A DNA stretch of 64,000 nucleotides from Methylobacterium gnaphalii (GTDB taxonomy: Bacteria; Pseudomonadota; Alphaproteobacteria; Rhizobiales; Beijerinckiaceae), in contig NZ_BJZV01000012.1 in assembly GCF_007992215.1 (NCBI RefSeq), positions 1 through 64,000 of the forward strand, in the 5' to 3' direction. Under the pieces are notes generated by a model that worked only from the letters and a program-made list of their open reading frames with translations, was not told where the DNA came from and searched no databases. Position 1 is the stretch's first letter; the number at the start of each line of letters is the position of its first letter. Shown here one piece after another: positions 2,435-26,681 of this stretch. The position numbers and the translations under genes are program-made.

Positions 2435-2502
2435 CCGGTGTCTCCTGACATCACCGGCCGGCAGGATGCCAGGATTGGGCCAGCTGTCGAGCCTCGCCCG
2501 CC

Positions 2503-3093: not shown

Positions 3094-4655
3094 TTCGCGC
3101 CATCCTTCATGCGGTTTTGCTTGTACCAGGCGTGAAAGCTCTGCTTGGGCGCCTCTGGCATCTCGCGCTTCTTCCCCCAGGTGTTGACCGGGTTGTAGAC
3201 GGCGAAGCGCGGCAGCGCCTTCAGCGCGGAATCCGCGGCGCCGATTGCGGCGCGGTAGGCGGCCGGGCGGCTCAGCACGGCGCCGGCAGCCTTCATCATG
3301 CCCTGCTTGAGCAGCGGGATCTGGTGCTCCTCCGCCAGCACCTTGCGCCAAGCGAAGATCTGCTCGTGGATGTTGATCTTCACTGGGCAGACATTGGTGC
3401 AGGAGCCGTTCATCGTTGAGGAGAACGGCAGGGTTGAATACTTTCGCTTGTTGAAGGTTGGGTCGATGATCAGCCCGATCGGCCCGGAATAGGTCGCGCC
3501 GTAGGAGAGCCCGCCCGAGCGCCGGTAGACCGGGCACGTGTTCATGCAGGCGCCGCAGCGGATGCATTTCAGCGAGGTCCAGAATTCTTCCATCCCGAGC
3601 CGGGCGGAGCGGCCGTTATCGACCAGGACCATATGCATCTCGGTGCCCTTTCGTGGCGCACGGAAATGCGAGGTGTACTGGGTGATGGTCGAGCCGAGCG
3701 CCGACCGCGCCAGCACGCGGATGAACACGCCGAGATGCTCGATCCGCGGAATCAGCTTCTCGATGCCGATGGAGTGAATCTGCAGCTTCGGGACATTGCC
3801 GGAGAGATCGGCATTGCCCTCGTTGGTGCAGGTGACGACGGTGCCGGTCTCGGCGATGGCGAAGTTGCAGCCGGTCATGCCGGCATCGGCTTGCAAAATC
3901 AGCGGGCGCGTCGTCACGCGCTGGCTCTCAGCGAGGTAATGCGCGTCGTCGTTGGTCGGGTCGGTGCCGAGGGTGCGGGCGAAGACCTCGGCGACGTCGA
4001 TGCGAGTCTTGTGGACTGCAGGCATCACCACGTGGCTCGGCTCCTCCTCGTCGAGCTGCTGAATGCGCTCGCCGAGATCGGTCTCGATGATGTCGATGCC
4101 GTTGGCCGCCATATAGTGGCGAAAACCGCACTCTTCGGTGAGCATCGACTTCGACTTGATCAGCGTCTTGGCGCCGTGGTCTAGCAGGATGCCGTGGACG
4201 ATGCGGTTGTGCTCGGCCCCGTCCGCCGCCCAGTGGACATGGACGCCGTTCGCCTTAGCTGCCGCCTCGAACTGTTCGAGGTAGGCGTCGAGGTTGGCCA
4301 GCGTGTGCGTCTTGATCTGCGAGGCGAGTTCGCGAAGTTCTTCCCATTCCGGAATCGCCTGAGTGGCGGCGTCACGCTTCTTACGGACGTCCCAGAGTCG
4401 AGCGTCGTGCGCGGCCTGGTGCAGCGGCGCGGCGATGAAGCGCTCGGCTGCCTCGGCCTGGTCGATCGGCTTGTTGCCGCGTATCTTGGCGCCGCGGGGC
4501 TGGGCCTCCCGAACAGCCGGCGCACGCACAGGCTTCGAGGCGCCCTCTGCGTGGTGCAAACGCTGACCATCCTGGCCACGTTCACTCTCGTCGTCGGGCG
4601 GCCGGACCTGCGGGTGGAGCGGGTCATCCTGGGAACGCATGCCTTCGGCGCTCAT
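3090..4655 (-). CDS. lutB: iron-sulfur subunit LutB of lactate oxidation complex
   Basis: LUD domain fused to a ferredoxin-like domain; with LutA and LutC it oxidises L-lactate and passes electrons to the respiratory chain. Of 521 residues, about 75-320 are LUD-like (GMTGCNFAIAETGTVV, CTNEGNADL). The cluster-binding part begins with CIRCGACMNTCP (Cys 364, 367, 370, 374) and continues with SCTNVCPVKINIHEQ (Cys 419, 423). The first 60 or so residues are hydrophilic, charged and unlike the usual LutB N-terminus, so a later start is possible although no internal ATG is well placed. The start overlaps the lutA stop by ATGA. The C-terminal region matches the LutB tail (WGKKREMPEAPKQSF). Confidence 0.94.
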   Translation of the reverse strand: MSAEGMRSQDDPLHPQVRPPDDESERGQDGQRLHHAEGASKPVRAPAVREAQPRGAKIRGNKPIDQAEAAERFIAAPLHQAAHDARLWDVRKKRDAATQAIPEWEELRELASQIKTHTLANLDAYLEQFEAAAKANGVHVHWAADGAEHNRIVHGILLDHGAKTLIKSKSMLTEECGFRHYMAANGIDIIETDLGERIQQLDEEEPSHVVMPAVHKTRIDVAEVFARTLGTDPTNDDAHYLAESQRVTTRPLILQADAGMTGCNFAIAETGTVVTCTNEGNADLSGNVPKLQIHSIGIEKLIPRIEHLGVFIRVLARSALGSTITQYTSHFRAPRKGTEMHMVLVDNGRSARLGMEEFWTSLKCIRCGACMNTCPVYRRSGGLSYGATYSGPIGLIIDPTFNKRKYSTLPFSSTMNGSCTNVCPVKINIHEQIFAWRKVLAEEHQIPLLKQGMMKAAGAVLSRPAAYRAAIGAADSALKALPRFAVYNPVNTWGKKREMPEAPKQSFHAWYKQNRMKDGAK

Positions 4656-5395
4656 GCGGCGGCTCCGTTCAGCACCTGTGCGATGTGAATATACTTCGTC
4701 GGCAGGCCAAGCCGCTCAGCGCAGCCCTTCTGGTGCATCAGGCAGGAGGAATCGGCGGAGACGACGTAGTCTGCGCCGGCTTTGGACTGATCGGTGACCT
4801 TGTCGTATCCCATCTTGGCCGAGACGGCGGGCTCAAACACCGAGAAGGTTCCACCGAAGCCACAGCACTCGTCGGGCCGGGCGAGATCCACGATCTCGAT
4901 GCCTTTCACCTTCTTCAGGAGGTCGAGAGGCTTGGAAAAGAACGGTTTGTTCAGCTCGGACGGGCGGGCGTGGTGGATGCCGCGCAATGCATTGCAGTTG
5001 TTGTGATACGCGACCCTGTGCGGAAACTCGGCCCAGGGTAATTCCTCAATTTTCAGGATGTCGTGCAGGAACTCGACCAGTTCGAAGGTCCTGGCCCGAA
5101 CTGCCTTCACCTCGTCCGTCTGCGGTATAGCGGTGAGGTGCTCACGGACCTGATGCACGCAGGAGCCAGACGGCGCTACGATATAGTCGAACGCCGAAAA
5201 ATTCTTCACGAACAGGGCTTCGGTCGCAGCGGCCTCGGCATGACATCCAGTGTTCGTCATAGGCTGGCCGCAGCAGGTCTGGTCGTAGGGGTATTCGACC
5301 TTGAGGCCGAGGCGCTCCAGCAACTCCAGCGCGGCGATACCTACCTCGGGCTCGAAAGCATCGACGTAACAGGGGACGAACAGCCCGACGCGCAT
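4652..5395 (-). CDS. lutA: Fe-S oxidoreductase LutA
   Basis: First gene of the lut operon, a 247-residue protein with the duplicated cysteine-rich (CCG) domain of LutA/YkgE, related to heterodisulfide reductase and glycolate oxidase iron-sulfur subunits. Two CCG motifs are visible: QTCCGQP (Cys 41-42) and DECCGFGG (Cys 177-178), with additional Cys at CYVDAFEP, SGSCVHQV and HNNCNALRG as usual for the family. It is translationally coupled to lutB by an ATGA overlap. It lies 113 bases downstream of the TPP-enzyme gene on the same strand, so the lactate-to-pyruvate step and a pyruvate-using enzyme may be co-expressed. Confidence 0.95.
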   Translation of the reverse strand: MRVGLFVPCYVDAFEPEVGIAALELLERLGLKVEYPYDQTCCGQPMTNTGCHAEAAATEALFVKNFSAFDYIVAPSGSCVHQVREHLTAIPQTDEVKAVRARTFELVEFLHDILKIEELPWAEFPHRVAYHNNCNALRGIHHARPSELNKPFFSKPLDLLKKVKGIEIVDLARPDECCGFGGTFSVFEPAVSAKMGYDKVTDQSKAGADYVVSADSSCLMHQKGCAERLGLPTKYIHIAQVLNGAAA

Positions 5396-5508
5396 GGGTT
5401 TTCCGGCTCGATTGTGGTCCGAGGCTCAGCGTCGTCATCCCGAGCCGCACAGCGGAGCCCGGAACGACGTCGCGTGCGGTAGACTGGAACCTTTGTAACC
5501 TGGGCGAT

Positions 5509-7269
5509 CTAGCGCAGCAGGTTCGTCTTGGCGAGATCGAGAACGGAATCGCCGCGGCCACTCATCACGGCGCGCAGGACATAGAGGCTGAACCCCCTTA
5601 CCTGTTGCCCATCGATTTTGGGAGGCATCGACAGTTCGTTCCGGGCCACGACCACATCCAGTAGGGCTGGCCCGTCATGCGCGAACACGTCGCGTGCTGC
5701 AGCTTCGAGTTCGCCAGGTTCTTCGACCCGCACGCCGTGGACGCCGACGGCTCGCGCCACCGCCGCGAAATCCGGGTTCTCGAGCCCGACGCCTGTCTCG
5801 ATGTAGCCGGCAGCCTTCATCTCCATTTCGACGAAGCCGAGCGAGCCATTGTTGAACACGACGATCTTGGCCGGAAGCTCCTCCTGGCGCAGCGTCAGCA
5901 GGTCACCCATCAGCATGGCGAAGCCGCCATCGCCCGAGAGCGAGACCACCTGCCGATTGCGGTCAGCCGCCTGCGCGCCAATCGACTGCGCCATGGCGTT
6001 CGCCATCGAGCCATGCACCCAGGAGCCTAGCAGGCGGCGCCGTCCATTCATCTTGAGATAGCGCGCTGCCCAAATCGTCGGCGTGCCGACATCAGCCGTG
6101 AACACCGCATCATCCGCCGCGACATCGCTGACGACCTTTGCGACATATTGCGGATGGATGATCGGCTTGTCGCGCTTCAACCCAAGCCAGCCGCGCACGG
6201 GCTTCGGCGTCGCGAGCTCGTCGAGTCCTTCGCGGGCCTTCTCGTAGTGCCTCAGACTATCGTCGAGGAATGAGCGATCGGTCTTTCCGCGCAGCTTCGG
6301 CAGCAACGCGTTGATCGTGGCGCCGACATCGCCGACGAGGGCGAGATCGAGCTTGCAGCGCCGCCCGAGATTTTCTGGCCGGATGTCGACCTGCGCAATC
6401 TTGGCGTCGCCCGGGTAGAACTGACGGTAGGGAAAGTCAGTGCCGAGCATCAGAAGTACGTCGCAGCTCATCATCGCGGCGTAGCCTGAGGAGAACCCGA
6501 TCAGCCCGGTCATGCCGACATCGTAGGGATTGTCGTATTCCACGTGCTCCTTGCCGCCGAGCGCGTGCACGATCGGGCTTTTCAGCCTCTCGGCGAGGCG
6601 CAGCAGACCGCCATGCACCCCCGCGCATCCGCGCCCACACAGCAGCGTCACGCGCGACGAACCGTTCAGAAGCTCGGCCAGAGCATCGAGATCTGGCTCG
6701 GCCGGACGAACCACCGGCTTGCGTGGGATCAGGCCGGCAACAGACGCGACACCGCGTGCAGGCGCGTCGGCCATGGCCACGTCGCCGGGGATGACGATGA
6801 CCGCGACGCCGCTCTGGCCGACGGCGGCGCGGATCGCGGCTTCGATCACTTGCGGAAGCTGGGATGCGTCGGAAACCAGCTCGCAATAGTGGCTGCACTC
6901 GCGGAACAGATTCTGCGGGTGTGTCTCTTGGAAATAGCCTGAGCCGATCTCTGCCGAGGGGATATGCGCCGCGATGGCAAGCACCGGCACCCGGGTGCGA
7001 TGGCAGTCGAAAAGTCCGTTGATCAGGTGGAGGTTGCCCGGGCCACACGACCCTGCACAAACCGCCAGTTTGCCGGTGACCTGGCTTTCGGCACCGGCAG
7101 CGAATGCCGCGACTTCCTCGTGCCTGACATGGACCCAGTCGATGCCCTCGCGGGTCCGGATCGACTCCGTGATCGCATTCAGGCTGTCGCCGACGAGGCC
7201 ATAGACTCGTTCGATGCCGGCCTGAACGAGAGTCTCGACGAAGAAGTCGGCGACGTTGTTGATGGCCAT
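5509..7269 (-). CDS. thiamine pyrophosphate enzyme, pyruvate oxidase/dehydrogenase (PoxB-like)
   Basis: A 586-residue member of the acetolactate synthase/pyruvate oxidase superfamily. The N-terminal domain has the catalytic Glu in VRHEEVAAF (Glu 51); the C-terminal domain has the TPP/Mg motif GDGGF (446-450), closed about 25 residues later by FNNGSLGF. Length and the [22 protein letters not shown] central domain fit ubiquinone-linked pyruvate dehydrogenase (PoxB) and its alphaproteobacterial relatives, but the exact substrate is not proven by sequence. The ATG at 7269 is favoured by CAGGAG 8 bases upstream; an in-frame start 20 codons earlier lacks this. Position upstream of lutABC suggests it uses pyruvate made from lactate, yielding acetate and CO2. 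Confidence 0.85.
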
Positions 7270-7349
7270 CGGTCCGGCTCCTGCTGCTTGGAGCCTGAAC
7301 AGCCGAGGCGCCGGGGTGTTCCGCGCCAACTGATGCGATGGGCGCGGGA

Positions 7350-7949
7350 TCAGTCCGGAATATCAGTATGCCGCGGCGCCACCACCGCGAAGAGGTCGCC
7401 GAGCGCTGCGAGGCTTGCTGCCTGCAGAGCTTCAGCCTTCACGACGGATCCGTCGGCCGAAGGCAGATCCCGTGTCGCCGTAGCGGCGGCCACGACGGTT
7501 GGCGAGAAACCAAGATTGAAGGCCCCACGCGCGGTCGAGTTCACGCACATATGCGTCATGAACCCGGTGATGATCAGGTTCTTTACGCTGGCCGTCTCCA
7601 GCCGCGCCTGTAGGTCGGTGCCGACAAAGGAACTCGGATAGCCTTTGGTGATTACCGGCTCGTCGCCCTGCGGTGCGACCTCATCACTGATCTGACCGAT
7701 CCGCGTCTCGACATCGTAGGGCGAGCCGGCCCCGGCATTGTGGCGGATGTGAAAGATCGGAATGCCGGCCTTGCGGGCGCGATCGAGCAGCGCCTTAGCC
7801 TCAATGATCGCCGGCTCGACGCCCGAGAGCTGCATCAAGCCTTCGCGATAGGTGTTCTGCAGATCAATCATCAGCAGCGCCGAGCCGCGCAACGGCGCCG
7901 GGTTCGGGCCGAGACCGGAGACATCGCGAAGAGTCTTGAGATCCGACAT
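7350..7949 (-). CDS. isochorismatase-family cysteine hydrolase
   Basis: A 199-residue alpha/beta hydrolase of the isochorismatase/nicotinamidase superfamily. The Asp-Lys-Cys catalytic triad is intact: Asp 29 in [10 protein letters not shown], Lys 102 in [10 protein letters not shown] and Cys 135 in [15 protein letters not shown]. The substrate cannot be told from sequence; family members hydrolyse isochorismate, nicotinamide, N-carbamoyl compounds and related amides. It is the most upstream gene of the minus-strand catabolic run, 80 bases before the TPP enzyme, and may share its transcript. A tRNA-Arg gene lies just upstream on the same strand. Confidence 0.85.
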
Positions 7950-7990
7950 CGGCGGCCTTCCTTGCGGCGTTGTCTTGGCTTGAGAGGCAA

Positions 7991-8067
7991 TGGCGACCCC
8001 GGTTGGGTTCGAACCAACGACCTGCCGCTTAGAAGGCGGCTGCTCTATCCAGCTGAGCTACGGAGTC
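7991..8067 (-). tRNA. tRNA-Arg (anticodon TCT)
   Basis: Full 77-nt cloverleaf on the minus strand: acceptor GACTCCG pairs with CGGGGTC (one G-T pair), D arm GCTC/GAGC, anticodon stem GCCGC/GCGGC with loop CTTCTAA giving anticodon TCT, T arm GTTGG/CCAAC with TTCGAAC loop, discriminator G and an encoded CCA end. It reads AGA codons. Confidence 0.97.
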
Positions 8068-8221
8068 TGACATGCCCGAAAGGGCAGAAGCCACGCGGGG
8101 CTTTCTCGGTCAACCCTCCGAGCGGCCGCGCCTGCCTGCCTGCGAGAGCATCGCTCCGCACAGATGTTGATATGTCCGCGCACGTCTTACTCAAGCTTGG
8201 GGCACGCTGTACCAGCAGCGT

Positions 8222-9115
8222 GTGACCTCGCTACGGAACGGCTTCCACTACGCTCTCGGCCTCGCGGCGCTCGCTGCGGCGAGCCTGCGTCATCGCATCG
8301 GCGGCTATACGCGTCCGACGGACTTCTCACCGGATGACTGGCCGACGGCCGTCACGCATGTGCACGAGATCGTCGAGGATTGGCGCCGTCATCTCGCGGG
8401 CCAGGACGGCCAACCATACGGTCTGACAGGCCTCGACATCTTAGAGCTTGGTCCTGGCGCCACCCTCGGCACGGGCGTTCTGCTCGTAGGCCTCGGCGCC
8501 CGCTCCTACCGCGCCATCGACGCATTCGCCCTCGCAAAACGCACACCGTCCGAGTTCTATTGGGTGCTGACGCAGACCGTGCAGGGTCCTGAACTCGATC
8601 AGGCGCGGCTTCGTGATGCCGTCGATGGGCTGGTCAGCGGGCGATCGGACCCGATCACATACGTTGTCGATCCCAGCTTCGATATCGTGCACGGGGCCGC
8701 TGGTCGTTCGTTCGACCTCATCTTGAGCTCAGCGGCCTTCGAGCATTTCGATGATATCGAGCGTGTACTCGGCCAAGTGAGCGAAGTCGCCCGATCGGGT
8801 GCTATCTTCCTGGCAGGCATCGATTTTCAGACGCATACGCGGGGGGTTCGCGGGCGCGATCCTAACAGCATCTATCGGTTCTCGCCGGGCCTCTATCGGA
8901 GCCTGTCCTTCCCGGGCCAGCCGAACCGGCAGCGACCGGCCGACTACCTCCGGATTCTGGAAAAGTTCGGCTGGGCGGATGCCGAAATCCGTCCCGTCGA
9001 CGTCGCCGATCCGGGCTACATCGCCTGGAGCACATCGGGCCTCGACGCGAATTTCCAGAGTTCTTCCGCGGACATGCACGTCCTGACCGGCTTCGTCCGC
9101 GCCGTGAAACGATAA
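8222..9115 (+). CDS. class I SAM-dependent methyltransferase, EPS-locus associated
   Basis: A 297-residue protein with the Rossmann SAM-binding motif LDILELGPGATLGTG (71-85) and a later motif FDLILSSAAFEHFDDIERVL that resembles motifs II-III of class I methyltransferases acting on small molecules, sugars or proteins. It starts with GTG; no strong ribosome site is evident. It stands alone, 217 bases before the polysaccharide gene run, on the same strand. A role in methylating a sugar residue of the polysaccharide is an inference from position only. Confidence 0.75.
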   Translation: MTSLRNGFHYALGLAALAAASLRHRIGGYTRPTDFSPDDWPTAVTHVHEIVEDWRRHLAGQDGQPYGLTGLDILELGPGATLGTGVLLVGLGARSYRAIDAFALAKRTPSEFYWVLTQTVQGPELDQARLRDAVDGLVSGRSDPITYVVDPSFDIVHGAAGRSFDLILSSAAFEHFDDIERVLGQVSEVARSGAIFLAGIDFQTHTRGVRGRDPNSIYRFSPGLYRSLSFPGQPNRQRPADYLRILEKFGWADAEIRPVDVADPGYIAWSTSGLDANFQSSSADMHVLTGFVRAVKR

Positions 9116-9176
9116 ATCGCGGGAATCTTCCACAGCATTTAGTTAGATATGCTATGAAAGACCACGATTGGTTCTG

Positions 9177-9203
9177 TCGGTTTGTTAAATCTCGTCAGAC
9201 CGA
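9177..9203. promoter_or_regulatory. hairpin in low-GC leader before the polysaccharide operon
   Basis: The gap 9116-9332 is noticeably AT-richer than its surroundings and contains TCGGTTTG (9177-9184) pairing with CAGACCGA (9196-9203), one G-T pair, 11-base loop. No clear -35/-10 pair was recognised, but the operon promoter should lie in this gap. Confidence 0.3.
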
Positions 9204-9332
9204 TACGTCGAACTCTCAGATGGAAGTAAGAACTGCTTAAGTACGAAGATCGGGTATCGCGGCCTGCCCGGGGGTGAAAGAGCTGGGCATGTCGACTTAT
9301 CTGGCACGGCTTCCGACATCGCCGGCGGCGGG

Positions 9333-12300
9333 ATGAGAGGCATGGACGGCATTCCGACGGACGGGCATCTGAACCTGCATGGCGCCCCGGGCACTGTGCG
9401 CGCTGAGAACATGATCACTGTGATCATCAAAGCCCTCAACGAGGAGGCGCATATCCGCCGCGCGGTGGAGAGCGCGTGGGAAGCCCTGCGCGTCGCCGAA
9501 ACGGCCGGTTGGGGCGCGGGCGAGGTGGTGCTGGCCGACAGCCGGTCGACGGACCGCACCGTCGAGATTGCCCTGGCCGGCGGCGCGCGTGTCGCCCGGC
9601 TGGCGGACGATGTACCGCGCGGTTGTGGGGTCGGGCCTCAGCTCGGCTATCAGTATGCCCGCGGCCAGTTCGTCTGCCTCATCGACGGCGACATGGTGCT
9701 CGACCGGGACTTCCTGAATGCCGGGATGCGGTACCTCGAGGAGCATCCGCGCGCAGCCGGCGTCGGCGGCGGGGTGCGCGACGTCAATGTCGTGAACCTC
9801 GAGTTCAAGCGCCGGGCCATCCGCGGTGCGGCCGACCTTCGGGCCGGGCCGGTCGACCGATTGAACGGCGGCGGTCTCTACCGCCGGGAGGCCATCGCGG
9901 GTGTCGGCCATTTCAGCGACCGGAACCTGCACGGCTACGAGGAATTCGATCTTGCCGTGCGGCTTCGCGCGGCGGGATGGTCGCTCCACCGTCTGGACGC
10001 TCCCTTCGTCGACCATCATGGCCATGTGATCGGCGGCTACGCCTTGCTGCGGCGGCGTATCCGCAGCCGATACCTCGACGGGATCGGCGAGCTGTTGAGG
10101 GCCGCACTCGGTCAACTGCATCTGGGGACGACCCTGCGGGACCTTCCCGAAATTCGGCTCTGGCTTGGCGTCTATTGCGGCTGGCTCATCGCGGCCGGCA
10201 TCGCCGTGGCGGTTCCCGGCTGGGCGAAATTTGCCTCGCTTGCTGGTCTGATGGCCCTGCCGATCGCGGTCCTGGGCCTGCGCTACCGCTCGGCTGCGCT
10301 CGGGCTCTACGCCTTCGTCGCCTGGAACGCCCACGCCTTCGGCATGGCCCGAGGCTTCCTTCGATCGAGAATCCCGCCGGGGGAGTGGATCGCGAGCACG
10401 ATGGCCGAATCGGGCAGCGTCGCCGCGACGGCGCGCAGCCCATCGCCGTCACTCCGGCCGGCCCAAGCCGTTGTGGTCTGTCTGGCGATCGCTGCGGCCG
10501 CCTCGGCTCTTGCCGGGAGACCCGCCGATGCCAGGCAGGCAGAGACGCGATGGGTTCCGGTCAAGGACCGCAACCTCGCCATCGCCGAGGGCAGCCCGCT
10601 CGATTTTTCTGCCCTCTCGCCGCCCGGCCCCGCCGGTGGAAGCGGCCGCGTGATCGCCAACCCGGCCGGCCAGCTCGCGCTCGCCGACAGGCCGGATGCC
10701 CGCATCCGGTTCCTGTGCGCCTCGCTCGCCTGGAGCCCCGCCTCCGGCAGCTACCCCGACAAGCCCACCGCCGACCGTTACGCGCGCCAGCTGCGCATCC
10801 ACGGCTACAACATCGCCCGGCTGCACTTCGCCGACGCCATCCTGATGAACGGGCGGGCAAACGACTTCGATCTCGATCCCGAGCAGTTCGACCGGTTCCA
10901 CTACTTGCTGGCCGCATTGAAGCGGAACGGCATCTACTGGATGATCGACGGCATGACGTCCAAGGCCGGCGGCCTCGGCGGCGTCGACGATCGCTGGGGC
11001 AACGAGAAGGATCTGAAGCTCGCCGTCCATGTCGACAAGACAGCCCGCCTTCACTGGCGGCGGCTCGTGGAGGCGATTTATGGCGGCGTGAATCCCTATA
11101 CGGGATTGACGACCTTGGCCGATCCAGCCTTGGCCCTCGTCGTTCTCGTCAACGAGAATACCGTCGAGTTCACGACGATCCTCGCCGAGCCGTCGGCGGG
11201 CAAGCCCTACCCCGACAAGCTTCGCCAGCCCTTCAACGCCTGGCTCGAGAAGACCTACGGAAACACGGCTGCCCTGCGCGCTGAGTGGAAGAGCCTCCCC
11301 CCCGGTGAGTCCATTGAAACGCGCAATGTGAGCCTGCCGAGCAGTCGGACCGAGCGGGGTCCGCGCATGCGGGACCTCCAGCGTTTCTTCGTGTCGCTGG
11401 AAGCGGACACCCTGGCCTGGATGAAGGCCGAGATTGCGAAACTCGGCTATGGCGGCCTCGTCACCGCCTACAACAACTGGTTCACGACCGAGACGGATGT
11501 CAGCCGGATCGGCCTGCCGGTCGTCAGCATGAACGCCTATTTCGACGAGGTGCCCTCGCTCGATCCGGGCACGACGATCACGCAGCAGAGCTCCCTCGAC
11601 ACAAGGGCGGATTATCTGCGGGAGCTCATCGCGCGCCGTCGCTACGGCCGGCCCTTCGTCGTAACGGAATACGACCACCTCTTCTGGAACCAGTTCCGCC
11701 GTGAAGCCGGCCTCGTGGGTCCTGCCTACGCAGCATTGCAGGGTTGGGATGCCATCTGTCGCCATGGATCGGGTCCGATCGACCTGAGTTTCGATCAGCC
11801 CTGGCCGCACAAGCGAGCCATGCTGCCTTACGGCATCTCGCTCGATCCCGTGGCGCGAGCCGGCGAGACGCTGGCTGCACTGCTGTATCGCCGGGGCGAC
11901 GTAGCCCAAGCCAGAACCGGCGTCGCGCTTCCCTTCCAGTCTTTTGCCGACGTCACCGAAGACGGTCAGGGTCGGCTGCCGGACGCGATGACCGAACTCG
12001 GCTTGCTGACGCGCTTCGGCCTCCTATCGGGCCCTGCACCCGATGGCGTCGCGATTCTTCCTCGCCGCGCACACACCGCTGCAGACAGCTTCGCCGATCG
12101 CGTCGACGCGTTGCGCCGTGACGGCGGGATCGAGAGCAACAACGCGACGAGTGCATCCAGCGGCGTCTTCGAAAGCGCGGGCCGTGAGATCCGTCTCGAT
12201 ACGCAGAATCGTCTCGCGCGCGTCGTCACTCCGCGGACGGTCGCGGCAAGCTATGCCGCCGCACCCGTTCCGCTGCAGCTCGGCCCCTTGACGATCGAGG

Positions 12301-12665
12301 CCGCGAGCGGTCCGGCCCTCCTCGCCGCGAGCGCGCTCGATGGGCGCGATCTGGCGAGGTCGCGGCGCGTACTGCTGATCTTCGCGACCGACGCCATGAA
12401 TACCAGGATGCGCTTCCGCGACACCGAGCGCCGGGTCGTCGAGGATTTCGGCAGAATGCCGGTGCTCCTGGCCCGGCAGACGGCCCGCATCAGGCTCGCA
12501 TCCGAGACGACGACCCGCTGGCAGGGTCGATCGCTGCACCTCGACGGATCACCCGGAAGCGCGCTGCATCTGACGACGGGCGGGCACGACGTCGTGCTCG
12601 ATCTCGACAACGCCGCGACGAGTCACGGCCCCACGACCTTCTTCTTGCTTGAGGCGCTGCGATGA
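9333..12665 (+). CDS. fusion protein: GT2 glycosyltransferase, membrane segments, glycoside hydrolase
   Basis: A 1110-residue fusion. Residues 27-250 are a GT-A family 2 transferase: MITVIIKALNEE, the DGD metal site at 118-120 and a distal YEEFDLAVRLRAAG acceptor motif. About 273-340 hold two or three membrane helices, and a further helix or internal signal lies at about 376-394 (AQAVVVCLAIAAAASALA). Residues about 405-800 form a clan GH-A-like TIM barrel with VLVNEN (Glu 608, likely acid/base) and VVTEYDHLFWN (Glu 779, likely nucleophile). The last 230 or so residues look beta-rich. Inferred topology: sugar transfer in the cytoplasm, hydrolase in the periplasm. The start is uncertain (ATG 9333, 9342 or 9411). 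It overlaps the next gene by ATGA. It likely builds and trims one polysaccharide; neither substrate is known. Confidence 0.8.
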   Translation: MRGMDGIPTDGHLNLHGAPGTVRAENMITVIIKALNEEAHIRRAVESAWEALRVAETAGWGAGEVVLADSRSTDRTVEIALAGGARVARLADDVPRGCGVGPQLGYQYARGQFVCLIDGDMVLDRDFLNAGMRYLEEHPRAAGVGGGVRDVNVVNLEFKRRAIRGAADLRAGPVDRLNGGGLYRREAIAGVGHFSDRNLHGYEEFDLAVRLRAAGWSLHRLDAPFVDHHGHVIGGYALLRRRIRSRYLDGIGELLRAALGQLHLGTTLRDLPEIRLWLGVYCGWLIAAGIAVAVPGWAKFASLAGLMALPIAVLGLRYRSAALGLYAFVAWNAHAFGMARGFLRSRIPPGEWIASTMAESGSVAATARSPSPSLRPAQAVVVCLAIAAAASALAGRPADARQAETRWVPVKDRNLAIAEGSPLDFSALSPPGPAGGSGRVIANPAGQLALADRPDARIRFLCASLAWSPASGSYPDKPTADRYARQLRIHGYNIARLHFADAILMNGRANDFDLDPEQFDRFHYLLAALKRNGIYWMIDGMTSKAGGLGGVDDRWGNEKDLKLAVHVDKTARLHWRRLVEAIYGGVNPYTGLTTLADPALALVVLVNENTVEFTTILAEPSAGKPYPDKLRQPFNAWLEKTYGNTAALRAEWKSLPPGESIETRNVSLPSSRTERGPRMRDLQRFFVSLEADTLAWMKAEIAKLGYGGLVTAYNNWFTTETDVSRIGLPVVSMNAYFDEVPSLDPGTTITQQSSLDTRADYLRELIARRRYGRPFVVTEYDHLFWNQFRREAGLVGPAYAALQGWDAICRHGSGPIDLSFDQPWPHKRAMLPYGISLDPVARAGETLAALLYRRGDVAQARTGVALPFQSFADVTEDGQGRLPDAMTELGLLTRFGLLSGPAPDGVAILPRRAHTAADSFADRVDALRRDGGIESNNATSASSGVFESAGREIRLDTQNRLARVVTPRTVAASYAAAPVPLQLGPLTIEAASGPALLAASALDGRDLARSRRVLLIFATDAMNTRMRFRDTERRVVEDFGRMPVLLARQTARIRLASETTTRWQGRSLHLDGSPGSALHLTTGGHDVVLDLDNAATSHGPTTFFLLEALR

Positions 12666-14149
12666 GGCGATCACGCGCCTTCATTACAGCGCGGCCGGCC
12701 GGCGGAACATGCGGCGATGGAGCTGCTCTAGCTCCGTTGGAGGACGGCCGCGCGCGCCTGCCTTCCGGCTTGCAACCCGATGATGCGCCATCGTCGCAGT
12801 CGTCCCCATCGCGGGCACCCGCTTCCGATGGTCTTTCCGCGACCGCGCAGTCGCCGGGTCTCCCATTCGGTTCGTCGATCACGGCAGACGACGTCGTCGC
12901 GACGACGCTGTTCCTGGCGGTTTTCCTCTTCTTCTGGATCTCGATCACGCCGTTCGTCGATTTGACGGACCCCGCCGTGCTCCTTCCGCAGACGGGTTCC
13001 AATACCGCCAATCAGGCTGTCGTGATCGGCCTCGCCGGAAGTCTCGTTCTCTACGCCGTCTACGCGCAGAAGCGTTGGTTCACCCCGGTCCTCAACACAC
13101 CGCTGATCCTTCTCTTCGCCTGGCTCGTGGTCTCGACGGCCACATCCATCGATCCCAGCCTGTCCGGCCGCCGCGTCGTGTTGACGGCGATCGTCTTCGT
13201 GATTGTCGCCGTCACCCTGCTATTGCCCAAGGACGTCGAGCGCTTCGCAGACCTGATCGCAGCGGCGGCACTGATCGTTCTGGTGATTTCGTATGGCGGC
13301 GTGATGCTGGCGCCGCACTATGCGGTTCACCAAGCCGGTGAGCTTCTGGAGCCGGAACATGCCGGCCATTGGCGCGGCCCGTTCACGCATAAGAACGGTG
13401 CGGGCGCGGCCATGGTGATGTGCGTCTTCATGGGCCTCTATGTCGCCCGCAGGCGAAGCGCCTTTGTCGGTTGGTTCATTACGGCGGCCGCGGCGCTCTT
13501 TCTCGTATGCTCCATGGCGAAGACCTCGATCGCGCTCCTGTTGCCGAGCCTTCTCCTCGCCTGGGTGATATCGAAGCTGCGCTCGACCTCCCGGCGCCTC
13601 CTCGTCGTCGGCGGCCTTCTCAGCCTTCTCCTTCTTCTCACCGTCGGTTCGGTGCTGGTGCCAGTGGTCGCCTCGTTCAATGCGAGCGTCATGGCCGACC
13701 CGTCCTTCACGAACCGCACCGACATCTGGCGCTTCGCCTTCTCGGCCGTCGCCGCGCGACCGATCTTCGGGAGCGGCTTCGAGGCATTCTGGGGCTCCGA
13801 GGATGTCTTCTTCGGCGAGAGCACGAGTTGGGCCAACCGCGCAGCGAACTCACATGACGGCTACCTGGACGTCCTCCTCGGCACCGGCTTTCCTGGTCTT
13901 TGCATCGTCGTATGGCTCTTCATCGTCGAGCCGATTCGAAATTTGAAGATCATCGAAGACGCCCAGAGCGATCCGGTGACGGCTTTGTTCTTCACACAAC
14001 TGTGGATCTACGGCGTGTTCTTTGCCGGACTGGAGACGTTTTTCTTCACGAATGGCGGTCCGGTCTGGTTCATGTTCCTGATGGCCATTCTCGGCCTGCA
14101 GTTCCAAGCCAAAGCGCGCCATCGCAGCCGATCGGTGTCCACGCCATGA
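12662..14149 (+). CDS. O-antigen ligase/polymerase-like membrane protein (Wzy/WaaL/ExoQ family)
   Basis: A 495-residue polytopic membrane protein. About 70 hydrophilic residues precede roughly ten membrane helices. The large periplasmic loop has the family hallmark: an arginine/histidine-containing stretch GPFTHKNGAGAAMVM (near 240) and further on NRTDIWRFAFSAVAARPIFGSGFEAFWG, then NSHDGYLDVLLGTGFPGL, closely resembling ExoQ-type polymerases and O-antigen ligases (NSHNxYL motif). It probably polymerises or ligates lipid-linked repeat units at the outer face of the inner membrane. The start overlaps the upstream fusion gene and its stop overlaps the deacetylase gene, both by ATGA. No Wzx flippase or Wza/Wzc exporter gene lies in the window. 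Confidence 0.85.
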   Translation: MRRSRAFITARPAGGTCGDGAALAPLEDGRARLPSGLQPDDAPSSQSSPSRAPASDGLSATAQSPGLPFGSSITADDVVATTLFLAVFLFFWISITPFVDLTDPAVLLPQTGSNTANQAVVIGLAGSLVLYAVYAQKRWFTPVLNTPLILLFAWLVVSTATSIDPSLSGRRVVLTAIVFVIVAVTLLLPKDVERFADLIAAAALIVLVISYGGVMLAPHYAVHQAGELLEPEHAGHWRGPFTHKNGAGAAMVMCVFMGLYVARRRSAFVGWFITAAAALFLVCSMAKTSIALLLPSLLLAWVISKLRSTSRRLLVVGGLLSLLLLLTVGSVLVPVVASFNASVMADPSFTNRTDIWRFAFSAVAARPIFGSGFEAFWGSEDVFFGESTSWANRAANSHDGYLDVLLGTGFPGLCIVVWLFIVEPIRNLKIIEDAQSDPVTALFFTQLWIYGVFFAGLETFFFTNGGPVWFMFLMAILGLQFQAKARHRSRSVSTP

Positions 14150-14955
14150 GTTCGCGAAGCGCAGAACTCGGGCGCGTTGTCAGCCAGGCCGACCGTGAGC
14201 CGCTGCGGCTTCGTCTTGCGCGGCTCGCCGCGCGCACGATCCGCACGCGGACGGTGCAGGCGCGGCCACATCCGCCGCTGGTCAGCTTCACCTTCGACGA
14301 TATCCCGGCGACAGCCGCGGAGCGCGGTGCCGCGATCCTCGAACAGAGCGGCGCGCGCGGCACGTTTTACATCGCCGGCGGTCTTGTCGGGACGGTCGAG
14401 CCGGGGCGGCGCCTCGTTACGGCGGAGCAGTGCGGCGACCTGCATCGCCGCGGCCACGAGATTGGCTGCCACACCTTCTCGCACCGGGCCGTCTCAGGCC
14501 TGTCGAGGCCGGCGCTCGCCGACGATCTCGCGCGCAACGCCGCCTTCCTCGCCGGGGTGGCGCCGCAGATCGCGCCGACGAACTTCGCCTACCCGTTCAA
14601 CACGACCTCGCTGAGGGCCAAGCGGCAGCTCGAGCGGCATTTCGCGAGCTGCCGCGGCGGTGTGCCGGGGATCAATACCGGGCGGATCGATCTCGGCTTC
14701 CTGCGCGCGGTCGAGCTCGCCGACGGGTACTGCGATGAGGCGATGATGCGCGGCTGGATCGCCCGGACGGTCGCGACGCGCGGCTGGCTGATCTTCTTCA
14801 GCCACGGCGTCAGCGAGTACCCGGAGCCCTATGGCTGCCACCCGGACCTGCTGCGCCTTGCCGTCGCCGAGGCGCGCGCCGAGGGCGCAACCATCGTCAC
14901 CATGCGCGAGGCCCTGCGGCAGGTGATCGGCGGTAACGCGGCGGGCACGGCATGA
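14146..14955 (+). CDS. polysaccharide deacetylase (NodB/CE4 domain)
   Basis: A 269-residue CE4 family enzyme. Motif 1 is VSFTFDDIP (Asp 51, 52), motif 2 is HTFSHRAVS (His 109, His 113) for zinc binding, and a later FFSHGVSEYP contains the usual terminal His. No signal peptide is visible, so it may act in the cytoplasm on lipid-linked sugars or be exported without a classical signal. The start ATG overlaps the ligase stop (ATGA) and its own stop overlaps the next gene (ATGA). Substrate inferred: N-acetylated sugar of the local polysaccharide. The upstream frame is open but would run through the ligase gene, so the coupled start is preferred. Confidence 0.88.
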   Translation: MSSRSAELGRVVSQADREPLRLRLARLAARTIRTRTVQARPHPPLVSFTFDDIPATAAERGAAILEQSGARGTFYIAGGLVGTVEPGRRLVTAEQCGDLHRRGHEIGCHTFSHRAVSGLSRPALADDLARNAAFLAGVAPQIAPTNFAYPFNTTSLRAKRQLERHFASCRGGVPGINTGRIDLGFLRAVELADGYCDEAMMRGWIARTVATRGWLIFFSHGVSEYPEPYGCHPDLLRLAVAEARAEGATIVTMREALRQVIGGNAAGTA

Positions 14956-16238
14956 TGGCCCTCGCCCAAAGGACCGGTCTCGAAGACATGCCTGCGGCTT
15001 CGCCGTCGGGCGGACGGCTCTTGTCGATCAACAACTACCATTACCGCCGCGGCGGCGCGGAGGTGGTCTTCCTCGAACAGAACCGCCTGTTCGAGGAGAT
15101 TGGCTGGGACGTGGTGCCCTTCGCCATGCGTCACCCACGCAACCTGCCCTCGGCCCACGAGCGCCACTTCGTTGAGGAGATCGAGTTCGGCCACGCCTAC
15201 GGGCCGCTGACGCGGCTACGGCATGCCGCGAGCATCATCTACTCGCGCGAGGCCCGCGCCCGGCTTCGCGATATCCTGGCCGAGGCGCGGCCGGACGTGG
15301 CGCATCTGCATAACGTCTATCACCACCTCTCTCCGTCCTTCCTGCCGCTGCTGCGCCAGGCTGGCGTACCGGTTGTGATGACGGTGCACGACCTGAAGCT
15401 CGCCTGCCCCGCCTACACGATGCTGCGCGACGGCCATGTCTGCGAGAGCTGCAAGGGCGGGCGCGTTCATAACGTCGTCGTGAACCGCTGCATCAAGGGA
15501 TCGCTGCCCCTGAGCGGGCTGGTCATGCTGGAAACCACCGTCCACCGGACGCTCGGGCTCTATCGCGATACCGTCGACGCCTTCGCCGTCCCGAGCCGTT
15601 TCTACATCGACAAGCTGGTGGAATGGGGCTGGCCGCGCGAGCGCTTCGTCCACGTGCCGAACTTCGTCGACGCCGCAGCCCTGCGGCCGGAAACCCAGGC
15701 GGGCGACGGCTTCCTCTATGTCGGCCGGCTCAGCCCGGAAAAGGGCCTCGACACACTCGTGCGGGCCGGCGCCCTGTCGCGCCAGCCGGTGACGATTGTC
15801 GGAACCGGCCCGATGGAGGAGACGCTGCGCGCGCTCGCCGCCGAGACCGGCGCTGATGTGCGCTTCCTCGGCTTCCGCACTGGCGAGGCGCTGCACGAGG
15901 CGATACGCGGCTGCCGTGCCGTCGTGCTACCGGCAACCTGGTACGAGAACGCCCCGATCAGCGTGCTCGAGGCCTACGCCCTCGGGCGCCCCGTGATCGG
16001 CACCCGCATCGGCGGATTGCCGGAGATGATCCGCGAAGGCGAGACTGGCGCCATCGTGCCGCCCGGAGACGCCGAGGCTCTCGCGGCCGCGCTCACGCGC
16101 TTCGCCGCGCTTCCGTCGGAGTCGCTCTCCGCCATGGGCCGGGCCGGGCGGCTCTGGGTCGAGACCGACTTCTCGCGCGAGGCCTACCGGGATCGTCTTC
16201 TCGCGCTCTACGCCTCTCTGCGCGGGGGCCGTCGATGA
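14952..16238 (+). CDS. glycosyltransferase family 4 (GT-B)
   Basis: A 428-residue GT-B transferase. The N-terminal half opens with LSINNYHYRRGGAEVV, the acceptor-side glycine-rich motif; the C-terminal half has LYVGRLSPEKGLDTLV, VTIVGTGPMEE and the donor-binding EX7E motif in WYENAPISVLEAYALGRPVI. A cysteine cluster, CPAYTMLRDGHVCESCKGG followed by NRCIKGS, in the N-terminal half is typical of a WbnH/WcaL-like subgroup. Sugar donor and acceptor are unknown. It is part of the ATGA-linked EPS gene chain, between the deacetylase and a second GT4. Confidence 0.92.
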   Translation: MMALAQRTGLEDMPAASPSGGRLLSINNYHYRRGGAEVVFLEQNRLFEEIGWDVVPFAMRHPRNLPSAHERHFVEEIEFGHAYGPLTRLRHAASIIYSREARARLRDILAEARPDVAHLHNVYHHLSPSFLPLLRQAGVPVVMTVHDLKLACPAYTMLRDGHVCESCKGGRVHNVVVNRCIKGSLPLSGLVMLETTVHRTLGLYRDTVDAFAVPSRFYIDKLVEWGWPRERFVHVPNFVDAAALRPETQAGDGFLYVGRLSPEKGLDTLVRAGALSRQPVTIVGTGPMEETLRALAAETGADVRFLGFRTGEALHEAIRGCRAVVLPATWYENAPISVLEAYALGRPVIGTRIGGLPEMIREGETGAIVPPGDAEALAAALTRFAALPSESLSAMGRAGRLWVETDFSREAYRDRLLALYASLRGGRR

Positions 16239-17443
16239 AGCCTCCGATCAAACCGCGCCGGCGGGCGCCCGGCCGGCCGCTCAAGGTCATGATGCTCGGG
16301 CTTCGCGGCTTGCCGCGCTTGCAGGGCGGCGTCGAGCGCCATGTCGAGGAGCTGGCCTCGCGCCTCGCCAGGGCCGGCTGCTCCGTCGAGATCCTGGCGC
16401 GGCAGCCCTATGTCGAGCGGAAGGGGCCGCATCGCTGGTCCGGCCTTCTCGTCATGCCGCTGCCGGCGCCCCGGGTCCGGTCGCTGGAGGCCGTGGTGCA
16501 CACCTTCGTCGGCGTCATCCATGCGGCGCGGCGCGGGCCGGACATCCTGCACATCCACGCCGTCGGTCCCTCGCTGCTCGTTCCGGTCGCCCGCGCACTC
16601 GGCCTGCGCGTCGTCGTCACCCACCACGGCTTCGACTACGACCGCGCCAAGTGGGGGCGTGTCGCGAAGACGGCGCTCCGGCTCGGCGAGTGGGCCGGCA
16701 TGCGCTTCGCCGACCGGCGCATCGCGGTCTCGCACGCCATCGCGGGCACCATGACGGAGCGCTACGGCGTGCCCGTCGCCACCGTGCCGAACGGCGTGAC
16801 GCCGCAGGCTCGGCCCACCAGCACGGGCGCCCTGGAGCGTTTCGGCCTGACGCCCGGGCGCTACGTCGTCATCGTCAGCCGCCTTGTACCGGAGAAGCGG
16901 CATTTCGACCTGATCGAGGCCTTTGCCCAGGGCGCGCCCGAGGGCTGGCAACTCGCCATCGTCGGCGCGGCCGATCACGAGGACACCTATTCGCGCCTCG
17001 TGCTCTCGGCGGCCGAGGCGACGCCGGGCGTCGTCGCCACAGGTTTCCAGAGCGGCCTCGCGCTGCGCGAGTTGAGGGCGCATGCGGGGCTGTTCGTGCT
17101 GCCATCGAGCCATGAGGGCCTGCCGATCGCCCTGCTCGAGGCGCTGGCCGATGGCCTGCCCGTGATCGCCAGCGACATCCCCGCCAACCGCGAGGTCGGA
17201 CTGCCGGAGGAGTGCTACGTGCCGGTGGGCGACATTCCAGCGCTGGCGGCCGCCATTGCCCGCTCCTGCGCGCGGCCGCTCACCGAGGCCGAGCGAGATG
17301 CGGCACGGGCGCGGGTGAGCCACGCCTACGACTGGGACACGATCGCCGGGGAGATCCGCCGGATCTACGAGAGTCTGCACCAGAACGAGGACCGCGAGCC
17401 CGACACCGACGGCCTCATTCCGATTCCCCGCCCTTCACCGTAG
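16235..17443 (+). CDS. glycosyltransferase family 4 (GT-B), second copy
   Basis: A 402-residue GT4 enzyme: KVMMLGLRGLPRLQGGVERHVEEL at the start, PDILHIHAVGPSLLVPVARALG, VVIVSRLVPEKRHFDLIEAF and the EX7E motif in SSHEGLPIALLEALADGLPVIAS. The GLRGLP..GGVE start resembles transferases that act early on lipid-linked polysaccharide precursors. Its start overlaps the preceding GT4 gene by 4 bases. Its 3' end overlaps the convergent acetyltransferase-like gene by 29 bases (17415-17443), so the two reading frames share sequence in opposite directions. Confidence 0.92.
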   Translation: MKPPIKPRRRAPGRPLKVMMLGLRGLPRLQGGVERHVEELASRLARAGCSVEILARQPYVERKGPHRWSGLLVMPLPAPRVRSLEAVVHTFVGVIHAARRGPDILHIHAVGPSLLVPVARALGLRVVVTHHGFDYDRAKWGRVAKTALRLGEWAGMRFADRRIAVSHAIAGTMTERYGVPVATVPNGVTPQARPTSTGALERFGLTPGRYVVIVSRLVPEKRHFDLIEAFAQGAPEGWQLAIVGAADHEDTYSRLVLSAAEATPGVVATGFQSGLALRELRAHAGLFVLPSSHEGLPIALLEALADGLPVIASDIPANREVGLPEECYVPVGDIPALAAAIARSCARPLTEAERDAARARVSHAYDWDTIAGEIRRIYESLHQNEDREPDTDGLIPIPRPSP

Positions 17444-18623
17444 GCGCCGGGCTACGCCTCAGCGTGCGCAGGATCACCCACTTATAGGGCCGCAGCCGCT
17501 GCCAGAGTTGCGACGCGCGAAGGCGCTCGAGCACCGCACCGGACCGGACATAGAGCCGGCCCCGCAGGGTCACCGGGATCACCGCGACGTGAAGCGGCAC
17601 GACGATGTCGCAATACTCGTCCTTGTAGACCTCATCGCCGATGCCGAAGTCGAACCAGCGGTAGCCGTTGGCATGACACCAGCGGATCAGCTCGTCGTTG
17701 AGGATGCGGCCGGGTGAGTATTTGCGCCACTCGCCCCCGGCATAGGCGGTCATCAGGAAGTAGAACCGGTCGCCGAAGATGAGGCCCCAGTGGCTCGCCA
17801 CCACCGTCTCGCCCGCCCTCACTGCCGAAAGGTGGATCGGAGCGAGGTTCGGCAGCCGCCGCGTCGCCTCGTCGTAGAAGGCGCGCTTGCCTGGAACCTC
17901 GAAGCCCGGAACGCGGGTCTCGTGAAACTTGCGCGTCTTGTTCTCGATCATGTCGTCGAGGAAGACCCGAGCCCGCTCGGCCGTCTCGGCCACCTCCAGC
18001 GCGACCGACTGATCCTTGGTGAGCTGGCGCATGTAGCGCTGGTGACGCTTCGAGACTGGAATGCGTGCCTCGAGCTCTTCGCGACTGCCGGACAGGCTCA
18101 TGACGTGGCCCGAGACGGGCATGGCCTCGGCACCGAGATGCATCAGTGGGTTGGCTTGGCCGCCGATCTCGACCGGCATCTTGTCGAGCAGTGCGACGTC
18201 GAATCCGGGCAAGGCGGATCGGATGCGCTGCCAGAGCCGCGTCATCGCCGCGCCGTCGATCTGCGCCGCGGAGGGGAACAGCACCGGCTGACTGTAATCG
18301 ACCACCGTTCCGTCGAGGAAACCGAGCACGCGGATCCCGCGCACGCGCTCGATCCCGAGCGGCAGCAGCATCACCGTGGCTCCGGCCGCGGTCGAGACAC
18401 CCACGAAAAGCGGGCGAATGCGCCGCGCCCGGCCGATCGTGTCGAGCCAGACCTCCAGGACGTCGGCGCATTGGAAGACGTGGCAGCGCGCCTGTCTGGG
18501 CTCGCCGGTGCGCGGCCAGTCCGGGAAGGCCGAGGGCGCATCGGCCACGCGCACCTGCAGATCGTCGATCGGGCCGAGCCCGGTCGAGGCCGTGTTCACA
18601 GCTTCGGGATCCAACCGGAGCAC
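17415..18623 (-). CDS. GNAT/FemAB-like acyltransferase, CelD/BcsL type
   Basis: A 402-residue protein of the GNAT_like (CelD/BcsL, FemAB-related) family found in polysaccharide loci. The central LSGSREELEARIPVSKRHQRYMR, the GETVVASHWGLIFGDRFYFLMTAYA stretch and SPGRILNDELIRWCHANGYRWFDFGIGDEVYK are typical of this fold. It likely N- or O-acylates a polysaccharide sugar; the substrate is unknown. It begins with GTG and no nearby ATG is available. It faces the EPS genes and overlaps the last one at its 3' end, so its transcript is separate from the main EPS operon. Confidence 0.8.
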   Translation of the reverse strand: MLRLDPEAVNTASTGLGPIDDLQVRVADAPSAFPDWPRTGEPRQARCHVFQCADVLEVWLDTIGRARRIRPLFVGVSTAAGATVMLLPLGIERVRGIRVLGFLDGTVVDYSQPVLFPSAAQIDGAAMTRLWQRIRSALPGFDVALLDKMPVEIGGQANPLMHLGAEAMPVSGHVMSLSGSREELEARIPVSKRHQRYMRQLTKDQSVALEVAETAERARVFLDDMIENKTRKFHETRVPGFEVPGKRAFYDEATRRLPNLAPIHLSAVRAGETVVASHWGLIFGDRFYFLMTAYAGGEWRKYSPGRILNDELIRWCHANGYRWFDFGIGDEVYKDEYCDIVVPLHVAVIPVTLRGRLYVRSGAVLERLRASQLWQRLRPYKWVILRTLRRSPAPTVKGGESE

Positions 18624-18759
18624 GTCGATTCCTTAGGCTCGGTACAGCACTGCTCGCCGGATGATGTGAGGCTCAAGCCCGGCGTGGGACAAGCGTTCTC
18701 GCCCGCCGCAAGAAGATTGCACCGCATGGTGAAGATGGCGCGACGCAAAACCTGACAGC

Positions 18760-25192: not shown

Positions 25193-25202
25193 CCTCGCCT
25201 CG

Positions 25203-26617: not shown

Positions 26618-26681
26618 GAGCATTGCCGAGCGAAGTGGCCGCCGGATCGCGTGAAGACAGAGCGGCAAAGGAGTCTGGCCG

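Follow-up and report, generated by a model that had tools for sequence, protein, structure and literature searches.

The stretch of DNA that we have analysed, i.e. positions 1 to 64,000 of contig NZ_BJZV01000012.1 of Methylobacterium gnaphalii (64,000 nucleotides, hereafter the window), holds on its forward strand an uninterrupted open frame of 1110 codons (9333-12665), in which a family 2 glycosyltransferase (GT2) domain is followed by membrane helices, a linker and a glycoside hydrolase (GH) barrel of the GH-A type. A reading made from the sequence alone (the sequence-only reading) had described the product as a compact, single-chain polysaccharide machine, with a polymer synthase on the inside of the membrane and a hydrolase on the outside. 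The single frame, which is open throughout and intact in two other named genomes, and the presence of a GT2 and a GH-A domain in it have been borne out; the polymer synthase part has not. The fusion, the domain folds (from confident models), the conservation of the catalytic glutamates and the gene context are the established part of the findings that are presented here. The source assembly is a draft of 4.78 Mb in 120 contigs, and the fused protein matches once in this genome.

The GH half is a predicted GH-A enzyme, as judged from its modelled fold and its conserved residues. The AlphaFold2 model of residues 401-1110, built from 43 rows, is confident, with a predicted local distance difference test score (pLDDT) of 88.2 and a predicted template modelling score (pTM) of 0.92, and it contains the (beta/alpha)8 barrel, the Asn-Glu pair after strand 4 and the Glu on strand 7 that characterise clan GH-A; the GH-A-like barrel that had been proposed after residue 400 is thus supported by the model, as well as by structural matches of the GH5 and GH42 type. 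Glu608, the proposed acid/base, is located four residues past the strand 600-604, directly after Asn607, while Glu779, the proposed nucleophile, is located within the strand 775-780; the two strands, counted by eye on the model, are the fourth and the seventh of the barrel. Asn607, Glu608 and Glu779 are invariant in 43/43 rows of the GH alignment, which includes 43 of the 60 available stretches (the other 17, mostly near-copies, were left out; locus L068 is without the first part of the domain). A weak profile alignment with the GH5 mannosidase 1uuq consists of two stretches, of 7.6 and 4.6 bits, neither of which is significant alone: the first ends on a paired “NE”, with Glu608 at chain position 215, and the second pairs Glu779 with the Glu at position 330, which we take to be the two catalytic residues of the mannosidase. 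On this conservation and on the predicted geometry, the assignments of Glu608 as the acid/base and of Glu779 as the nucleophile are very likely correct.

The family of the barrel is less sharply drawn. In a Foldseek search of the GH model against the PDB, beta-galactosidases rank first (E 9.7e-14), with lower entries titled GH42, and GH5 mannanases, GH167 and GH164 rank behind the beta-galactosidases. Among the matches listed by VIA-align 2, where rows within Z 1 count as tied and where a GH family that is missing is not thereby excluded, GH5 beta-mannanases and mannosidases come first for the domain model (Z 22.5, root-mean-square deviation 3.1, 315 residues); for the full-length model, the best GH5 match has Z 26.3 (deviation 3.0, 308 residues), and the top four GH5 rows span Z 25.0-26.3 (3.0-3.4, 308-319 residues). 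Beta-1,2-glucosyltransferase chains are also listed. The Pfam profiles of GH5 (13.5 bits vs a cut-off of 23.5, E 0.052) and GH42 (10.6 bits vs 21, E 0.34) match the window protein below their cut-offs, the profile of GH17, a family of clan GH-A, gives no match up to E 1, and NCBIfam gives none to the GH half. Across the 43 members, GH5 is matched at E 0.1 or better by 29 (best 6.6e-05) and GH42 by 17 (best 0.0014). The domain assignment that had been suggested from the sequence therefore holds above cut-off for GT2, but not for GH5.

The GT2 assignment comes from Pfam family PF00535, which matches residues 29-160 (E 1.5e-13, 51.5 bits vs a cut-off of 23.3), and from the DGD motif, which had been pointed out at 118-120 and is invariant in the 29 rows of the GT alignment (29 of the 65 available stretches, the window counted once; a further alignment, A3, has 48 rows). 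Asp69, Asp118, Asp120, Glu203 and Glu204 are invariant in the same rows and position 206 is either Asp or Glu; a GT-A fold, a DxD-type motif and an acidic catalytic residue, i.e. the marks of the family, are all found, and GT2 structures match the full-length model at Z 20-21 over about residues 25-254. Ten NCBIfam models match the transferase half, all of them below their own cut-offs. Processive GT2 synthases of the BcsA and hyaluronan synthase type carry a QxxRW motif and a bundle of several helices that forms a channel; QxxRW occurs in none of the 29 rows, and the GT half has at most three helices plus one linker segment, all predicted, which falls short of such a bundle. Structural comparison of the GT half was made within the full-length model. 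In the VIA-align 2 list of this model, which is capped at 50 matches and shared with the GH half, the GT entries are 6p61, WrtF, RmlT and TarP (Z 19.6-21.0), and the last three we take to be non-processive enzymes. Because of the missing motif, the few helices (two or three), these structural matches and the Wzy/ligase-type gene and two GT4 genes of the operon, the polymer synthase of the sequence-only reading is not supported; as judged from motifs and modelled structure, the GT2 half is not a typical polymer synthase and more likely attaches single sugars to lipid-linked units.

The two halves of the protein are normally encoded apart. A scan of a species-genome collection with six exact peptide words, which is no census, gave 64 loci: the GT2 and the GH are on different frames in 58, mostly rhizobial, and fused in two, while two loci hold the GH only and two the GT only. 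The fused relatives, from Methylobacterium sp. C25 (L021) and M. haplocladii (L022), are 69-73% identical to the window protein, with no stop. In 50 of the 58 separate loci, the two domains are less than 300 bases apart on the same strand; in seven loci (L031, L036, L049, L054, L058, L063 and L073) they are more than 800 bases apart, which leaves room for another gene. The stop of the GT2 and the start of the GH were compared in 15 separate pairs that have a GT row, with starts of our choice: eight pairs overlap by four bases, two by one base and three by more, and two are about 770 bases apart. Among the 60 loci with both GT2 and GH, 50 have homologues of all four proteins encoded downstream of the fusion, i.e. 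the Wzy/ligase, the deacetylase and the two GT4 proteins, and six have none of the four within the fetched stretch. Two GH matches, L074 7839-10184 (Duganella sp. BJB480) and L082 8872-10008 (Brucella oryzae, a partial frame), lack a GT2 homologue in the sequence fetched around them.

The fusion is bound to a few Methylobacterium species. Within the genus, the GH is found in 3 of 111 genomes, each time in an open frame that is 1117-1158 long; apart from the window genome, these genomes may be those of the named species. Across the order, it is found in 10 of 397 genomes at E 1e-10 or better, two of them from the genus of the window (frames of 1158 and 1117) and the other eight with frames of 744-902, of which G387 and G334 match the GH profile only in part. 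A plasmid collection has 92 matching records, 84 of which cover 80% or more of the query, with none above 60% identity; a search for relatives of the whole protein scored at most seven candidates per genome, so that little can be read from the genomes in which it missed the GH. In the GT tree (97/97) as well as in the GH tree (100/99), the fused rows group on a single branch, which fits one origin of the fusion. In the GT tree, the GT2 of Methylobacterium sp. Leaf108 (L077), a locus without the GH, is placed beside the fused rows, and an older fusion from which L077 has since lost the GH would fit too. Neither a GH remnant nor a Wzy was matched by tblastn at 1e-8 in L077, which has, in the region 7884-14936, homologues of the methyltransferase, the deacetylase, both GT4 and the GNAT proteins of the window along with the sister GT2. 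The C-terminal tail of this GT2 is 100 residues long and includes a hydrophobic stretch; it could be what remains of a lost fusion, or a coincidence. The trees differ within the fused branch, the GT tree joining the window with L021 (97/98) and the GH tree joining L021 with L022 (99/96); either a faster change of the GH half of the window protein or a recombination within the gene could account for this disagreement.

One of the separate pairs is on the pSymB megaplasmid of Sinorhizobium meliloti, where the GT2 (Q1M65_12040) and the GH (Q1M65_12035) are 48% and 49% homologous to the two halves. Like the window, this cluster has Wzy/ligase, deacetylase and GT4 homologues; unlike the window, it has the pair as two adjacent genes and adds Wzz/GNVR, VanZ-like and DHDPS-like genes. 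In strain R14 (L085), the region 4891-18192 of the fetched stretch holds an annotated GNAT gene together with DHDPS-like, Wzz/GNVR, Wzy/ligase, deacetylase, GT4, VanZ-like, GT2 and GH genes. The cluster presumably carries the tags SMb21499-SMb21504, for which our literature searches, made among open-licence papers, found no paper; SMb21506, which we assume to be its GumC-type gene, is reportedly named in the title of a 2009 paper by Jofre and Becker.

The junction between the halves is the least conserved part of the fused proteins: their identity is 81-86% in the GT domain, 73-85% in the barrel, 32-61% in the linker and 15-50% in the hydrophobic segment. In the full-length model, residues 362-403 have pLDDT < 50, and a low-confidence helix (381-393) lies inside the hydrophobic segment 377-396, which is preceded by an Arg-containing stretch and followed by an A-x-A motif (398-400) that is kept in the three proteins, as ADA, AEA and ADA. 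The mean number of lysine and arginine residues in the 29 GT rows is 2.41 before the first helix, 0.72 between the first and the second, 2.45 after the second and 2.79 after the third helix. With the positive-inside rule, by which positive charges mark the cytoplasmic side, this pattern would place the GH in the periplasm; it fits a cytoplasmic GT tail, a third helix that would not cross the membrane and a linker segment that would lead outward. The starts of the separate GH homologues, which look like signal peptides by eye and by hydropathy, point in the same direction, and the position of the GH outside the inner membrane, as had been proposed, is in this way supported at the level of sequence.

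Most simply, the hydrophobic segment is the signal peptide that the GH had before the fusion. Its 19-residue hydropathy score in the three fused proteins is 2.04, 2.06 and 1.55, while the separate GH starts (49 of 56 were long enough, and some are shortened by the choice of start codon) have a median of 1.38 and a maximum of 1.98; two of the three fused segments thus score above every separate start, which leans towards an anchor. A simple A-x-A rule was tried as a test of cleavage and was set aside as unselective, as it fires in 56/56 of the separate GH starts and, within the fused segments, at many sites. An internal restart of translation at Met357 as a source of separate GH is not favoured: the ATG is absent in L022, and in the window and L021, which have it and where such a restart may still occur, the purine-rich stretches upstream of it (GGGGGAG and GGAGG, respectively) are 15-17 bases away, i.e. 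beyond the usual spacing of a ribosome-binding site. Because the linker has a signal-peptide-like segment and A-x-A in all three proteins, the fused protein may be cut in two.

Downstream, the fusion is followed by genes of a polysaccharide operon (Table 1), with four-base overlaps at 4/4 junctions from the fusion through the second GT4 gene (the start of the deacetylase being our choice). The deacetylase also matches NF050820 at E 1.4e-52, but with 178.9 bits vs a cut-off of 400. The sequence-only reading had the fusion at the head of an exopolysaccharide operon; the operon stands, but the head position is doubtful because of a methyltransferase-domain gene located 217 bases upstream on the same strand, a homologue of which precedes the GT2 in L021, L022 and L077. 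The GNAT gene at the other end is conserved in the same three loci. A promoter scan of 9000-19000 found none, and terminator-like sites in this interval number 6 vs 4.3 (standard deviation 2.1) in shuffles. Elsewhere in the genome, there are homologues of export genes (contigs C2 and C21), of initiating transferases (C2, C8 and C21), of chain-length genes (C2, C3, C13 and C21) and of flippases (C13 and C26), the last from a broad family that also matches all 14 control genomes. Further away, the window has an ethanolamine ammonia-lyase large subunit gene beside LutB-like and CCG-domain genes (1052-5395, minus strand), an ATP-binding cassette transporter set with a family-3 solute-binding protein and a porin gene upstream (24281-27542, plus strand), and dnaA (30511-32082).

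Table 1. Positions in the window of the parts of the fused gene and of the genes around it.
Feature	Position	Strand	Evidence
Methyltransferase-domain gene	8222..9115	+	PF08241, 24.3 bits vs cut-off 21.2
Fused GT2 - membrane helices - linker - GH-A gene (1110 residues)	9333..12665	+	Frame, Pfam, AlphaFold2 models
GT2 catalytic domain, residues 28-260 (DGD 118-120; E203, E204, D206)	9414..10112	+	Pfam PF00535, full-length model, conservation
Helices 273-293 and 296-317, third helix 321-343 (membrane-spanning or interface)	10149..10361	+	Hydropathy, full-length model, charge pattern
Junction: linker 346-376, hydrophobic segment 377-396, A-x-A 398-400 (possible signal peptidase site)	10368..10532	+	pLDDT, identity by region, hydropathy, three-protein alignment
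GH-A (beta/alpha)8 barrel, residues 436-855	10638..11897	+	AlphaFold2 model, structural matches
Glu608, likely acid/base, Asn-Glu after strand 4	11154..11156	+	Invariant in 43/43 rows, model, 1uuq alignment
Glu779, likely nucleophile, strand 7	11667..11669	+	Invariant in 43/43 rows, model, 1uuq alignment
C-terminal beta-sandwich, residues 946-1108	12168..12656	+	Strand pattern in model
Wzy_C / O-antigen ligase-type membrane protein, 4-base overlap with the fusion	12662..14149	+	PF04932, E 2.9e-12
Polysaccharide deacetylase (HfsH-like), start chosen at ATGA overlap	14146..14955	+	PF01522, E 1.5e-17
GT4-type glycosyltransferase	14952..16238	+	PF00534, E 4.5e-33
GT4-type glycosyltransferase	16235..17443	+	PF13439, E 5e-24
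GNAT-type acetyltransferase, convergent end of the cluster	17415..18623	-	PF13480, E 2.7e-27

The explanation that we prefer, and to which we give about an even chance, is that a rhizobial-type pair of a GT2 and a secreted GH-A enzyme has been fused in a small Methylobacterium clade, with the GT2 adding a sugar and the periplasmic GH trimming a polymer made by Wzy. A conserved Rhizobiales-type gene pair, in which the gene of a membrane GT2 precedes that of a secreted GH-A glycosidase, would have become a single frame. On the cytoplasmic side, the GT2 would extend a lipid-linked unit by a sugar; the GH domain would be carried to the periplasm, as suggested by the topology, by its former signal peptide, which is located in the middle of the fused protein. 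The Wzy-type enzyme of the neighbouring gene would make the polymer outside, and the GH, with Glu608 as its acid/base and Glu779 as its nucleophile, would cut or transfer this polymer, setting its chain length or clearing misplaced polymer, by analogy with the role of PslG for Psl. If the segment is not cut, the GH would be permanently attached to the inner membrane. A bolder version, which we put forward tentatively and regard as somewhat unlikely, has the whole chain working as a cross-membrane pair of a non-processive repeat-unit glycosyltransferase and an as yet unclassified periplasmic GH-A enzyme, which would found a new family of glycosidases encoded in polysaccharide operons, with conservation from Sinorhizobium to Methylobacterium and perhaps with an action on beta-mannoside-like linkages.

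Several observations weigh against the preferred explanation. The helix 321-343 is hydrophobic enough to cross the membrane, in which case the tail of the GT2 would end up outside and the GH on the wrong side, so that it is on the charge bias alone that the topology depends. The pTM of the full-length model is 0.65, and the relative placement of the two halves is therefore not given. No flippase, export or chain-length gene is found in the operon of the window, and the Wzy route is accordingly pieced together by inference. Lastly, Foldseek also lists hyaluronan synthases (Chlorella virus and Xenopus) for the GT half.

The main rival agrees with the preferred explanation in all but the fate of the chain: the protein would be a polyprotein, in which signal peptidase cuts the signal-peptide-like segment to give the same two proteins as in rhizobia, and the fusion would mainly fix their ratio at 1:1. 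This is quite possible, though short of an even chance. The separate GHs have signal-peptide-like starts at the same place, and the three fused proteins keep an A-x-A after a segment that is itself hardly conserved, which favours a cut, and the cytochrome b/c1 polyprotein FbcH of Bradyrhizobium provides a precedent (for which our literature searches among open-licence papers gave nothing usable); the lack of selectivity of the A-x-A rule and the anchor-like hydropathy of two of the three segments argue the other way. Compatible with either fate of the chain, so that the confidences of the readings overlap, is the view that the GH half is a transglycosylase that branches, cyclises or ligates the product, rather than a hydrolase. 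GH-A barrels can do either, and transfer would be favoured if the GH is kept close to the site of synthesis; sequence does not tell transfer from hydrolysis, and most of the closest folds are named hydrolases, beta-1,2-glucosyltransferase chains being listed too, and we hold a transglycosylase to be rather unlikely. A transglycosylase role has also been suggested for the GH17 domain of the pseudomonad GH17-GT2 proteins, two of which had this domain assayed as a transglycosylase (PMC10237404).

A processive synthase that makes and extrudes a polymer, with the GH as its editor, would bring the fusion close in plan to the pseudomonad GH17-GT2 proteins (PMC10237404); the membrane helices at the C-terminus of the GT2, the hyaluronan synthases of the Foldseek list and a chondroitin synthase, which is the best PDB match of the GT2 by sequence profile, speak for it. 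We consider it improbable, since QxxRW is absent in 29/29 rows, the helices number two or three only, the GT rows of the 50 best VIA-align 2 matches (the list shared with the GH half) include no membrane synthase, and the operon has a Wzy_C gene and two GT4s. A frameshift of sequencing or assembly that joins two normal genes is next to impossible: the pair is separate in 58/64 loci and the source genome is a draft, but the same fused frame is found without a stop in the two named genomes at 69-73% identity, and the frames are open in all three genomes of the genus that hold the GH, two of which may be those of the named species.

BcsA and BcsZ, a processive synthase and its matching hydrolase, resemble the fusion in belonging to one operon and differ from it in being encoded by separate genes. 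PslG, a GH39 enzyme, is a separate protein, unlike the GH studied here, and is by analogy the closest working model for its role. In both cases, a glycosidase of a polysaccharide operon would be held at the inner membrane, and for PslG both this association and the hydrolytic activity are described as important for Psl (PMC6813494). The pseudomonad “Orphan” and NdvB proteins, according to models, are single chains in which membrane helices connect a TIM-barrel GH in the periplasm to a GT2 in the cytoplasm, i.e. they share with the fusion the joining of a GH and a GT2 across the membrane (PMC10237404). Their GH is N-terminal and of family GH17, whereas the order here is GT2 then GH, with a C-terminal GH5/GH42-like domain below the Pfam cut-offs and no GH17 match, so the fusion does not qualify as a GH17-GT2 cyclic glucan synthase; their GT2 is described there as BcsA-like, with Q(Q/R)xRW and a column of helices (PMC10237404), whereas here the motif is absent and the helices are few. 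The cyclic beta-1,2-glucan synthase Cgs (GT84, a GH144-like CY domain and a GH94-like domain) also joins a GT2-like transferase with glycosidase-type domains in a membrane chain, but all its soluble domains are cytoplasmic and its product is a cyclic glucan (PMC10901819).

One-chain pairs of a GH and a GT2 across the membrane are thus already known, and the fusion is a variation on a known theme; what is new is the order of the domains, the GH-A group of the rhizobial polysaccharide loci, which is without a Pfam match above cut-off, and the joining of this group to a GT2 of non-processive appearance. Our searches of the open-licence literature, by title or abstract start, found no description of this fusion. 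The need for a glycosidase in polysaccharide operons was called elusive as late as 2022 (PMC9075953). A natural fusion of a glycosidase and a glycosyltransferase, together with its unfused relatives, offers a ready-made comparison of the same enzymes tethered or free, and if the chain stays whole, the enzyme that commits a sugar to the repeat unit would hold the trimming or transferring enzyme at the same spot of the membrane. The fusion also draws attention to a group of GH-A enzymes from a polysaccharide cluster that is conserved but has received little study, and that is located on the symbiotic megaplasmid of S. meliloti and in many other rhizobia.

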